Source of the DNA: Terebella lapidaria
Taxonomy: Eukaryota; Annelida; Polychaeta; Terebellida; Terebellidae
Length of the DNA: 64,000 nucleotides
Assembly: GCA_949152475.1 (NCBI GenBank)
Contig: OX424567.1
Coordinates: 16,517,402-16,581,401 of the forward strand
Direction of reading: 5' to 3'
Positions 3,298-60,557 of the stretch are shown piece after piece (the first letter of the stretch is position 1; each line of letters opens with the position of its first letter). The position numbers were made by a program, and so were the translations under genes. The notes under the pieces are model-generated. The model was not told where the DNA came from and did not search any database. It saw only the letters and a program-made list of their open reading frames with translations.

Positions 3298-4409
3298 AAT
3301 TTCTTGGTTATTCCTTCATGGTAACTAACACGAAAATTAGTCCCGCGAAATTGGTGGCCAGCTGGTTCTACATACCCAAGTGGGTGAAGCGTCGTTGTTA
3401 CCGGCGCTCGTCGATGCCGCCAATACCGCCGGTTACAAGCGTCGTTCTTACCGTCGCTCGTCGATGACGGCGATACCGCCGGTTAGAAGCGTTGTTCTTA
3501 CCGTCGCTCGTCGATGTTGCCAATAGCGCCGGTTAGGACTGTGAATCTTACCGTCGCTCGTCGATGCCACCAATAGCGCCGGTTAGGACTGTCTTTCTTA
3601 CCGTCGGTCGTCGATGCCGCCAATAGCGCCGGTTAGAACTGTCCGTCTTACCATCGCTCGTCGATGCCGCCAATACCGCCGATTAGGACTGTCTTTCTAA
3701 CCGTCGCTCGTCGATGCCGCCAATAGCGGTATACCGCCCAAAAACGATAAGACAGACAGTCCTAACCGGCGCTATTGGCGTCATCGACGAGTGACGGTAA
3801 GGAAGATAGTCCTAACCGGCGCTATCGGCGGCATCGACGAGCGACGGTAAGATTGATGCTTCTAACCGGCGCTATTGGCAGCATCGCCGAGCGACGGTAA
3901 GAAAGACAGTCCTAACCGGCGGTATTGGCGGCATCGACGAGCGACGGTAAGAAAGACGCTTCTAACCGGCGCTATTGGCGGCATCGACGAGCGACGGTAA
4001 GACGGACAGTTCTAACCGGCGCTATTGGGGGCATCGACGACCGACGGTAAGAAAGACAGTCCTAACCGGCGCTATTGGCGGCATCGACGAGCGACGGTAA
4101 GAACGACGCTTCTAACCGGCGCTATTGGCGGCATCGACGAGCGACGGTAAGAGGGACAGTTCTAACCGGCCCTCTTGGTGGCATCGACAACCGACGGTAA
4201 GAAAGACAGTTCTAACCGGTGCTGTTGGCGGCATCGACGAGGGACGGTAAGACGAACAGTCCTAACCGGCGCTTTTGGCGGCATCGACGAGCGACGGTAA
4301 GACGGACAGTTCTAACCGGCGCTATTGGCGGCATCGACGAGCGACGGACAAAAATTGGGTGGACTGAAAAATTCCGCGGAGGTTACCATGAAGGGATAAC
4401 CAATTTCTT
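3298..4409. mobile_element. Foldback-type element of inverted 50 bp arrays with 8 bp target duplication
   Basis: The element spans 3306-4401 and is flanked by a perfect 8 bp direct repeat AATTTCTT (3298-3305 and 4402-4409). Its ends are inverted repeats: GGTTATTCCTTCATGGTAAC on the left against GGTTATCCCTTCATGGTAAC read inward from the right. Inside are 7 units in one orientation (about 3390-3738) and 12 in the opposite orientation (about 3760-4360). Every unit is exactly 50 bp, and they meet at an inversion point near 3735-3755. The unit core is CGTCGCTCGTCGATGCCGCC followed by AATAGCGCCGGTTAG. The architecture is that of foldback elements (Drosophila FB, sea-urchin TU), and an 8 bp duplication fits hAT-type mobilisation. 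It carries no transposase, so it is non-autonomous. The frame at 4219-4575 is a translation of the array. Confidence 0.85.
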
Positions 4410-5777
4410 GACAAAGTATAAACTGATGTACTATAATGTATTTGTTCTTATCTATTGCACTGCCGTCTATCGAATGGTCTCAATCATAACGTACATCTCC
4501 ATGGAATACACCTTTCAGCAGGCCGACATTATCATAGCGCATACGTGTTGTGCCACTCTTGTCTCAACGTCCTAACATTTTTTTTCGGAAAAAGCATCAT
4601 CAGTCACTGGTGGCTATATTGAAAGTCGCTTGGTTCATTTCCAAGGTTTAGATACAAATTTAGGAATATTGGTTATTTACATGTGTTTATATTCAAAATG
4701 AGCAAATTATATTCATACCCTTGGAATAACTAAATTCGTGGTTATAATTTGCTCGGTGGCGCTGAATACCGCTCCAAGTGCAGAATATACAGGCTACCTT
4801 GGGTGGTTTTTTTCTTCTCTCTTTCGCTTTTTTATTATTTCTCAAATGCCAAAGCTCTAGAAAATCTGTCTGGCGCAAAGGCCATTGAATTCACCACCAG
4901 AGCAAAATCAATACCACCGGTTGACCTAAATACGGCCCGTTCACACCCGACTGTGCGGGCCGCCATTGCTCGATATTGCCCAGGCGGGCGCCAATGTCTG
5001 ACACGAACCGGGCAATAACATATTTCATCGGAGAAATGACAAATATTCAACAGTTTTTCAGCATTTGACTTTCGGACGAATTGTCCGAAATATCTCATAT
5101 CTCTTGAGAAAAGTTATATGGGTTTTTTTACCGGTTCGAAGTATTGTGTTATATAACTGTCCGTCGAAGTGCTATATTATAATAATTATCAGACAGTTAT
5201 TGTCATAATTTATGCCGATTTTCCTAAATCAAGAACATTTGTGATTTACGGTGAAAGTCTTCGTAGATGTGCATTGAATACTCTGCTTGTGGGTGATAAT
5301 ATTTATTATAAAATATATGAATTCACGTGATATGCAATCCATGATGTATGAGCAAAATGATGTATATTTCATTTTATAATTTATTTGGTCTCCAGAAATA
5401 AACATCGTGGGATTATACAACCAGAAAATTCGCTTACGTACGTACTAGAGTAGTTTTTCTCCAAAGCATTTTCATGTTATCATAATAATAAACATAAGAT
5501 ATCATTCGTTCACAATTCTAAATAAAATATTCGATTTCCCTCGCATTATTCACATATATAATTTGCGTATCGTAAGATACGATATTATTCTTCTCAAAAC
5601 ACTTATATCTGGAAATAAGCGGGATTTTGCACAGTTTGTTAGGCTTTACCATCCTTCCCATATATTATGCAACGTACGTGTATAAGTGATCAGAATGATA
5701 TGAAAGTATGAATATTTGACACTATAACCCCTACTGAACGGCTTCATTTGAACGATTGAATGACATGACTAAATACA
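4410..5777. other. AT-rich stretch, nothing recognised
   Basis: I see no exon-like segment or transposon boundary here. The short open frames near 4693-5098 lack a convincing start and splice context. A slightly GC-richer patch at 4900-5010 has no recognisable motif. Confidence 0.5.
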
Positions 5778-6364
5778 TATTCAATAGTTCGTTCGAGTTC
5801 GTGCGTTGTGTATTTTATTATTGTGTGTGGTCACTTGTGCGAGATAGGTCATATGCATAGGAAATTACAATGTCGGGCAATCGAGGTATACATGCAAATA
5901 TGTAGATTTATAGGCTTGCATAATATTACTGTAGTAATAATAAAGTGAAAACAATAATATTATGACCGAGATTGTGCGTTCTATCTCGCAGTAATTATAA
6001 TGAGCATCCCGTATGTTTGAGACGCTTTGACTAGAAATACTATAATAAAATACACAACGCACGAACTCATTTGAACGATTGAATGACATGACTAAATACA
6101 TATTCAATAGTTCGTTCGAGTTCGTGCGTTGTGTATTTTATTATTGTGTGTGGTCACTTGTGCGAGATAGGTCATATGCATAGGAAATTACAATGTCGGG
6201 CAATCGAGGTATACATGCAAATATGTAGATTTATAGGCTTGCATAATATTACTGTAGTAATAATAAAGTGAAAACAATAATATTATGACCGAGATTGTGT
6301 GTTCTATCTCGCAGTAATTATAATGAGCATCCCGTATGTTTGAGACGCTTTGACTAGAAATACT
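5778..6364. mobile_element. MITE-like element in tandem (one full unit, one truncated)
   Basis: A 27 bp perfect inverted repeat lies at 5795-5821 and 6042-6068 (GAGTTCGTGCGTTG outward). Imperfect pairing extends outward to ATTCAAT (about 5778) and ATTGAAT (about 6083), giving an element of about 306 bp. The block 5744-6041 is repeated at 6067-6364 with a spacing of exactly 323 bp and almost no differences, but the second unit lacks its right inverted repeat. The paired minus-strand open frames at 5865-6107 and 6188-6394 are products of this duplication and not genes. Confidence 0.75.
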
Positions 6365-58294: not shown

Positions 58295-60557
58295 AGGTTA
58301 CCGTACCTTTGGTCCGTAACCTATTGGCATGGCGATGCGTCCGGCGTCGTCGTCGTCCGTCGTCCGTCGTCGTCGTCGTCCGTCAACAATTTTATCTTTA
58401 AAGTTTACGATCGAATTTTTCTGAAATTTTGCACAAAAATGCCTAAAAATATTTCGAGAGGGAGGTATTTTTTAGTTTTTTGATTTTCGCATTTTTTTCA
58501 AAATGGCGGCCGTTTTCGACGAAAAATGCCTGATTTTGGACTTTGGCGGCCATTTTCTCAAAATCTGTTCAGTAACTTTTTTTTATTGATGCATAACACT
58601 CCTCATATGTACCCCTGTGACATGTATAAATTTCGTTGCGCTTGAATCGCTCGAAGTGGGCCATTTTGGGCCCAAACTCGGCCCAAATGGGACTTTCCCA
58701 TGTTAAATTCTCCTATGCTTTATAATGGGACACATTAAAGCCTAATATCTCACTTAATATTGAGATTAGAGACTAGGAATCAATTGTGGACATATAGGAA
58801 ATGATATATGCTGAATATTGTCGTGACCTTGAATTTGACCTCTGACCTTGGTTTCAAGGTCAGAGCGGCCGTTTTCGTCGAAAAATGGCCAAGTTTGGTC
58901 TTCGACGGTCGTTTTCTCAAAATCTGTTCAGTAACTTTTTTTTTTATTGATGAAAAACACTCCTCATATGTACCCCTGTGACATGTATAAATTTCATTGC
59001 GCTTGAATCGCGTGAAGTTGGCCGTTTTGGGCCCAAACTCGACCCAAATGTGACTTTCCCATGTTAAATTTTCCTATGCTTTATAATGGCACACATTAAG
59101 CCTAATATCTCACTTAATATTGAAATTAGAGACTAGGAATGAATTGTGGACATATAGGAAATGATATATGCTGAATATTCTCGTGACCTTGAATTTGACT
59201 TTTGACCTCATTTTCAAGGTCACAGGACAAAATGGCTAATATCTCGCTTATTATCGACTTTACAGCTTAGGAATCAATTGTGAACATATAGGAAATGATA
59301 TATGCTCAATATTCTTGTGACCTTGAATTTGACCTTTGACCTCATTTTCAAGGTCACATGACAAAATGGCTAATATCTCGCTTATTATCGACTTTACAGT
59401 TTAGGAATCAATTGTGAACATATAGGAAGATATATGCTGAATATTTTCGTGACCTTGAATTTGACCTTTGACCTCATTTCCAAGGTCGCAGGACAAAATT
59501 GCTAATATCTCGCTTATTATCGACTTTACAGCTTAGGAATCAATTGTGAACATATAGGAAATGATATATGTTGAATATTCTCGTGGCCTTGAATTTGACC
59601 TTTGACCTCATTTTCAAGGTCACAGGACAAAACGGCCAATATCTTGCTTATTAGCGACTTTACAGCTTAGGAATCAATTGTGAACATATAGGAAATGATA
59701 TATGCTGAAAATTCTCATGACCTTGAATTTGACCTTTGACCTCATTTTCAAGGTCACATGACAAAATGGCTAATATCTCGCTTATTATCGGCTTTACAGC
59801 TTAGGAATCAATTGTGAACATATAGGAAATGATATATGCTGAATATTCTCATGACCTTGAATTTGACCTTTGACCTCATTTCCAAGGTCACAGGACAAAA
59901 TTGCTAATATCTCGCTTATTATCGACTTTACAGCTTAGGAATCAATTGTGAACATATAGGAAATGATATATGCTGAATATTCTCATGACCTTGAATTTGA
60001 CCTTTGACCTCATTTTCGAATTCACAGGACAAAATGGCCAATATCTTGCTTATTAGCGCCTTTACAGCTTAGAAATCAATTGTGAACATATAGGAAATGA
60101 TATATGCTGAATATTCTAGTGACCTTGAATTTGACTTTTGACCTCATTTTCAAGGTCAACAGGACCAAATGGCTAATATCTCGCTTATTATCGACTTTAC
60201 AGCTTAGGAATCAATTGTGAACATATAGGAAATGATATATTCTGAATATTTTAATGATATTGAATTTGACCTTTGACCTAAATTTCAAGGTCAGTCATTT
60301 TATTTTCAAAGTCAGATTACAAAATGGCTTATATCTCGCTTATTATCAAATTTACAGCTTAGGGGTCCATAGTGAACATATAGGAAATGATGTATGCTGA
60401 ATAGTTTAGTGATCTAGAATTTAACCTTTGATCCCATTTTCAAGGTTAGAGATATGGCGATTTCAGTGGTCACCTTGAATTTGACCTTAAACTTTCTCGG
60501 CTTAACTCTGTATATTTCTCCGGTAACCTTTCTAGCCCATTGGGCTAATTTTTTTTT
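58295..60557 (+). mobile_element. Pearl/HINE-like element, copy 4 (best preserved)
   Basis: It begins with the hairpin AGGTTACCG / GGTCCGTAACCT, then CTATTGGCATGGCG and a GTC-type microsatellite (58330-58383). Two copies of the semi-unique part follow (anchors CAAATGGGACTTTCCCATG near 58683 and its variant near 59042), then about ten ~134 bp units (59110-60440). The end is CCGGTAACCTTTCTAGCCCATTGGGCTAA-type sequence (60520-60548) and a T-run. The start and end blocks form a subterminal inverted repeat, and AGCCCATTGGGCT is a terminal hairpin. All are features of Helentron-associated non-autonomous elements. It is non-coding. Confidence 0.8.

Follow-up and report, generated by a model that had tools for sequence, protein, structure and literature searches.

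The Mutator/Foldback element Tm1 of root-knot nematodes is reported to have composite inverted arms with asymmetric outer motifs and variable numbers of tandem units of ~14 bp, and to occur in several non-autonomous forms, including MITE-like ones. Its target-site duplications are mostly 9 bp long (range 8–10 bp) and show no clear target consensus, and a Phantom-like transposase has been found encoded in a copy of the element (PMC3169594). Galileo, a Drosophila element of the P superfamily, has long arms with internal tandem repeats, which were shown to carry transposase-binding sites (PMC3688188). Tetris from Drosophila virilis is described as a foldback with tandem arm units (TIR-220) and 8–10 bp duplications, represented by three complete and four rearranged copies (PMC4079207).

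The locus analysed here is located in a stretch of 64,000 nucleotides from the polychaete Terebella lapidaria (the window) and is closely comparable to these systems. With Tm1, as reported (PMC3169594), the present elements share the composite arms, asymmetric outer motifs, variable unit numbers, multiple non-autonomous (also MITE-like) forms and lack of a clear target consensus, whereas their units are 50, 53 or 60/120 bp long, their duplications have 8 bp and an autonomous copy did not turn up. As in Galileo (PMC3688188) the arms are long and internally repeated. That system, however, has a P transposase, whereas the target sites here are duplicated over 8 bp and the single P gene scored in the vicinity of an end belongs to a nested element with other ends. 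Like Tetris, they are foldbacks with tandem arm units for which no autonomous copy was found and whose units also occur in satellite-like arrays; the differences lie in the 50-bp units, the 8-bp duplications and the presence of hundreds of termini instead of the few copies reported (PMC4079207). Among the papers listed by the literature searches, as judged by titles and the openings of abstracts, none describes the present family. TU of sea urchins and FB of Drosophila also have inverted arms of short tandem units, and the duplication is 8 bp in TU and 7 bp in Galileo. The likeness to TU and FB is one of general description, their units apparently being of other lengths and sequences.

Organization of the window element

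The element has a length of 1,096 bp (window 3306–4401) and lies inside a target-site duplication, AATTTCTT, the left (3298..3305) and right (4402..4409) copies of which are perfectly identical (8/8) in sequence and directly adjoin the two ends. The left terminal inverted repeat, GGTTATTCCTTCATGGTAAC (3306..3325, plus strand), is a T-type end of the family, and the right terminal inverted repeat, GGTTATCCCTTCATGGTAAC (4382..4401, minus strand), is a C-type end; the two are identical at 19/20 positions. No further 20-bp terminus with up to three mismatches occurs elsewhere in the window, the expectation being 0.00 (mean of 100 shuffles). The mirror symmetry of the two ends stops at about 20 bp. 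The left subterminal region (3326..3395, plus strand) is not mirrored at the right end and is closely similar in many other left ends fetched from the genome, while the right subterminal region (4353..4381, minus strand) reads CTCCGCGGAATTTTTCAGTCCACCCAATT in the inward direction. The first unit is found 90 bp from the left end and 49 bp from the right end.

The forward array (3396..3728, plus strand) consists of six complete units of 50 bp plus a seventh that is partial (3696–3728), the units F1–F7 starting at 3396 and then once every 50 bp. The reverse array (3753..4352, minus strand) comprises the twelve 50-bp units R1–R12. At the centre a perfect 12-bp palindrome, GCGGTATACCGC, can be read from the sequence (3726..3737). 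An independent analysis with TRF yields a period of 50 and 0% indels for both arrays. It is evident that an earlier sequence-only reading of this locus, which described a foldback at 3298–4409 with opposed arrays and matching inverted ends, was right in coordinates and structure. Its count of 19 units (7 forward, 12 reverse) in exact 50-bp phase is likewise borne out, with the qualifications that F7, differing from the consensus at 16 of 50 positions as compared to 1–8 in the other 18 units, is partial and that the outer edge of R12 has diverged. The strong stem that it expected from the inverted arrays agrees with the predicted fold: when window 3386–4350 is folded as single-stranded RNA the calculated energy is −714.7 kcal/mol, far below that of 20 shuffled sequences (−369.0 kcal/mol, sd 10.5). 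The strand is thus able to fold on itself, and double-stranded RNA could form if the arrays were transcribed.

The window contains no long open frames and no tRNA genes, and an Rfam search of it returned nothing at gathering score. A middle domain of ~250 bp that is present in longer relatives has no match at the window locus. Other repeats are present in the window. Arrays of a 134-bp repeat, the unit of which contains AGGTCAAAGGTCA, presumably a DR1-like nuclear-receptor site, occupy 188–2083 and 59102–60446 on opposite strands; the same repeat is found in two of the fetched regions (L024 6468–7468 and L028 445–1187) and recurs at other genome loci. A 323-bp unit at 5744–6364 (1.9 copies, 99% matches) is apparently a recent tandem duplication.

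Family copies, target sites and array types

With the window element as query, at least 655 matches are obtained in the organism's own assembly (761.6 Mb, 438 contigs). The terminus, allowing up to two mismatches, occurs at 278 places (133+145) as compared to 3 (3+0) for a reversed control, and the extended end pattern CTTCATGGTAACNNNC[A/G]CGAAATTT occurs exactly at 81 and 58 places, the reversed control giving 0. The pattern of the terminal repeats is absent from viral_contigs (0 matches), and no match of the window element to plasmids and phages was found at E 1e-5. Twenty regions were fetched, out of about 29 clusters among the matches listed; these copies are the best matches or chosen pairs of terminal repeats and do not form a random sample. 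All 20 contain at least one terminus (up to four substitutions), with two opposed ends in 11 regions, two ends in one orientation in 1 and a single end in 8. T-type (left) ends mostly lie about 90 bp ahead of the first unit and C-type (right) ends about 49 bp. The ends are mostly closely similar from copy to copy, less so in L012, L024 and L028. Unit numbers range from 19 in the window element to 106 in L018. Long inverted arms of tandem subrepeats, short conserved terminal repeats with duplications and a variable unit number are all found, and the window element is a member of a large genome-wide family of the known foldback kind.

Some of the copies are rearranged. L025 (1189–9311) contains a tandem doubling of one end together with its flank and the middle domain, the two middle copies being 99% identical; exchange between arrays could be the source of this doubling. 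In L012 (2869–7590) two ends have one orientation. Ahead of the second lie the flank of the first end in reverse complement (CCTCTACT/AGTAGAGG) and ~270 bp in open frame, which suggests a local inversion of one arm plus flank.

Target-site duplications were analysed in 18 two-ended elements, i.e., the window element and 17 fetched ones, including L029, L030, L035, L043, L044 and L045; this count leaves aside L012, the eight regions with a single end, L025's second right end and a nested element in L033/L034. The 8-bp duplication is perfect in 14/18, matches at 7 of 8 positions in 3/18 and is absent in 1/18, and when lengths of 5–12 were tried, seven or more matches were obtained at 8 only. The sole element without it, L013 (3/8 matching), may be the product of an exchange between two elements. 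The small nested element of L033/L034 shows, by eye, a duplication of about 6 of 8. L044 and L045 have the same duplication and at least 17 + 11 flank bases in common and are most simply one insertion present at two loci, so that the number of independent insertions is at most 17. These data support the window element as a mobile foldback with target duplication, and other insertions with 8-bp duplications and variable unit numbers, as anticipated by the sequence-only reading, do exist. A satellite array that was expanded and inverted in place, with no transposon involved, would account for the satellite-like appearance of some clusters, such as the array matches over ~12.5 kb at C1:31772394–31784860. 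It is nevertheless extremely improbable, as exact 8-bp duplications are found directly outside the conserved ends in those 14 elements, including that of the window.

Three types of array are combined with closely similar ends: type A with units of 50 bp, type B of 60/120 bp (L029, L035) and type C of 53 bp (L030, L043). The four B- and C-type elements all have perfect 8-bp duplications (4/4). The units of types A and C have a core in common (score 40 as compared to 26 for the best of 1000 shuffles, 0/1000 reaching the score), and those of types A and B do so by a narrow pass (30 as compared to 27, again 0/1000); in both pairs the core has the same orientation relative to the end. A direct comparison of B and C units gives a score of 17, which 198/1000 shuffles reach and which is no pass. 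The B-type elements L029 and L035, as well as the two of C-type, L030 and L043, were considered as autonomous elements and rejected, since no transposase-like frame is recognized by eye among the frames listed. In both 60/120-bp elements read a 97-bp satellite lies between the arms (L029 1571–3814, L035 3493–4661).

Among the 13 spacer pieces compared, 11 have the middle domain in common. For the open part of this domain neither Pfam nor the PDB gives a match, and among 45 genome matches listed, judged by eye, 33 coincide with listed arrays or termini or lie close by, 3 are about 7 kb from an array or terminus and 9 are near none of those listed. An interpretation as transposase relic or captured gene is rejected in view of the missing Pfam and PDB matches, but given those 9 matches a source outside the elements is possible.

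Evolution of the arrays

In the window and the 20 regions together 1,038 units were found, and of the 994 spacings of up to 200 bp between them 924 are exactly 50 bp. The strict phase had been ascribed to maintenance of length, or to homogenisation by recombination. With respect to homogenisation, random pairs of units differ at 8.35 of 50 positions within an element and at 8.60 between elements, values that are almost equal and leave room for little local homogenisation. Pairs at fixed lags of 1–12 in unbroken runs of at least eight units show 6.8–7.3 differences. Neighbouring units are therefore somewhat more alike and some local similarity exists, although part of it is perhaps caused by the omission of short broken runs. 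Similarity is slightly highest at lag 3 (6.78 differences as compared to 7.27 at lag 1), a mere hint of 150-bp higher-order repeats.

With respect to length, alignment of L044 with L045 reveals one 200-bp gap, equal to four units in one array, one 1-bp gap and a few substitutions. Gain or loss of whole units, as in this pair, leaves the 50-bp phase intact. Wraparound alignment of 40 array spans (51,659 aligned bases) contains 4,644 mismatches and 93 indels. The overall ratio of 50 mismatches per indel, taken alone, favours the proposed length constraint. However, only 1,000 of the mismatches are rare variants (<3% of a column), the remainder being common to many units, and these give 10.8 per indel; the rare-variant cut-off and the gap costs are of our choosing, and the ratios derive from the arrays alone. 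In view of the four-unit difference and the 10.8 rare substitutions per indel, selection on length is rejected as the cause of the strict phase, which is read as needing no special length constraint. Thus the suggestion that length or homogenisation is maintained mostly fails, except for the local similarity among neighbouring units.

Conservation over the 1,038 units averages about 1.5 bits in columns 31–40 and about 1.1 bits in columns 41–50; columns 1–30 served to find the units, columns 31–40 did not. Because an oriented core is common to array types, and because the arm repeats of Galileo are reported to be bound by transposase (PMC3688188), the units are most likely to be regarded, by analogy, as putative transposase-binding sites. 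The core could instead be conserved through common descent of the units.

Taken together, the window element is very probably a member of a family of non-autonomous foldback DNA transposons that are moved in trans, make an 8-bp duplication and carry arrays that change by whole units. A cut-and-paste transposase would be supplied in trans and would recognise the 20-bp ends; the core present in every 50-bp unit would most likely serve it as a further, repeated binding site. The element would then insert with duplication of 8 bp of the target, and the arrays would lengthen or shorten by whole units when units in register undergo unequal exchange or slippage. The expected result is a variable unit number with a persisting 50-bp phase.

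Candidate transposases

Several superfamilies may supply the transposase, and the genome was searched with Pfam profiles for MULE, hAT, Merlin, P and KDZ, the places found being compared by script with 201 terminus places. Of the 278 termini, 178 were outside those listed, and the extended end-pattern search recovered only some of these. Among the 201 terminus places and the scored candidates, no transposase of the five superfamilies is bounded by the family ends, and the autonomous element with the same termini that had been proposed as a check did not emerge from the places compared. As only some of the 278 termini were among these places, an autonomous copy may exist among the genome's termini. 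Merlin places are found within 15 kb of a terminus in 1/48 cases (0.38 expected), and since this single place is on the outer side of the + oriented end C6:16048532 it lies outside that element.

The sequence-only reading held that an 8-bp duplication implies a hAT-type transposase, i.e., that the element is a hAT-superfamily foldback or MITE. Duplications of 8 bp are common to several superfamilies, so that their presence here, although in agreement with hAT, is no proof of it. Typical hAT ends start with YARNG and typical hAT targets follow the pattern nTnnnnAn. The present ends start with GGTTAT, and among 16 distinct duplications (three of them 7/8, the left copy being taken) T is found at position 2 in 5/16 and A at position 7 in 1/16. 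Genes with hAT domains are common in the genome, with 149 matches among the 150 of 273 candidates that were scored, but the proximity screen (15 kb, 1.18 expected) retrieves 1/149 places, and the terminus in question is part of a ~300-bp pair (C3:13130233, 13130517) that does not span the hAT match. Owing to the ends, the target sites and the proximity screen hAT is less likely than had been claimed, and we consider it a very unlikely source.

A Mutator-like (MULE/Phantom-type) transposase has the highest prior, because most foldback elements seem to be Mutator, according to the account in PMC4079207. The reported MULE duplication range of 8–11 bp (PMC6446971) includes the 8 bp observed here, and the FB-like arms of Tm1, with the outer motif CGGTTAA, are reported together with its Phantom-like transposase (PMC3169594). 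On the other hand, the duplications are 8 bp here as compared to 8–10 bp given for Tm1 (PMC3169594) and Tetris (PMC4079207), none of the 39 MULE-domain places is within 15 kb of any of the 201 terminus places (0.31 expected), and the MULE loci L031 and L032, when read directly, contain no match to CTTCATGGTAAC with fewer than two mismatches. Mobilization by a MULE is a tentative possibility, somewhat short of an even chance; a firmer assignment is precluded by duplications of uniformly 8 bp and by the negative MULE screen.

A Galileo-like transposase of the P superfamily would fit the 8-bp P duplications reported in zebrafish and Drosophila (PMC10983969) and the abundance of P-type genes in the genome (496 candidates, 150 scored). 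The proximity screen gives 1/150 places within 15 kb of a terminus (1.19 expected). This only scored gene near a terminus, in L036, is rejected as the family transposase, since it is part of a nested element with other ends of its own (~100 bp, starting CAAAGATTG) and a 7-bp duplication. Furthermore, the copy of that element on C9 contains no match to CTTCATGGTAAC with fewer than two mismatches in the 9.9 kb read. A P-type source is considered unlikely. The P-superfamily transposon itself, which is nested in a foldback element, extends over about 7.9 kb, from about 1228 in L036 into L041; its duplication is, by eye, ATGTCAT, and over 6.5 kb the C9 copy (L042) shows 98.6% identity. The long domain at the left of L036 was also considered as the end of a progenitor and rejected, as it is largely a common unrelated repeat (query about 380–918).

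The one clear excess over chance concerns KDZ (Zisupton-like) transposases. Zisupton makes 8-bp duplications, and 2 of only 14 KDZ matches, at one locus on C5, are situated on the inner side of one exact terminus, at distances of 7.0 and 11.5 kb (0.11 expected within 15 kb). Because five families were tried the coincidence is not compelling. In addition, the 17.9 kb read at this locus contain no closing terminus, and a search there for inverted 10-mer pairs that are spaced by 2.5 kb or more and have an exact 8-bp duplication returned none. The element present there bears arrays, includes a common repeat on its left side and has two long relatives, on C5 and C8. KDZ is thus very doubtful as the source. 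From the sequences one may also picture a modular foldback system that retains one kind of terminus and an oriented core but becomes diversified in linker and unit length (50, 53, 60/120 bp). Its arrays would act as long landing strips, with >100 sites in a single element, for a transposase that belongs to none of the five superfamilies tested; this picture is rather improbable.

Foldback elements are known from several eukaryotes, their transposases often not. In the genome of T. lapidaria termini number in the hundreds, arrays of three types are bounded by closely similar ends, and two loci directly display a whole-unit change in array length. With these, two questions become testable, namely whether the array units serve as transposase-binding sites and by what means phased arrays keep their phase despite little homogenisation.
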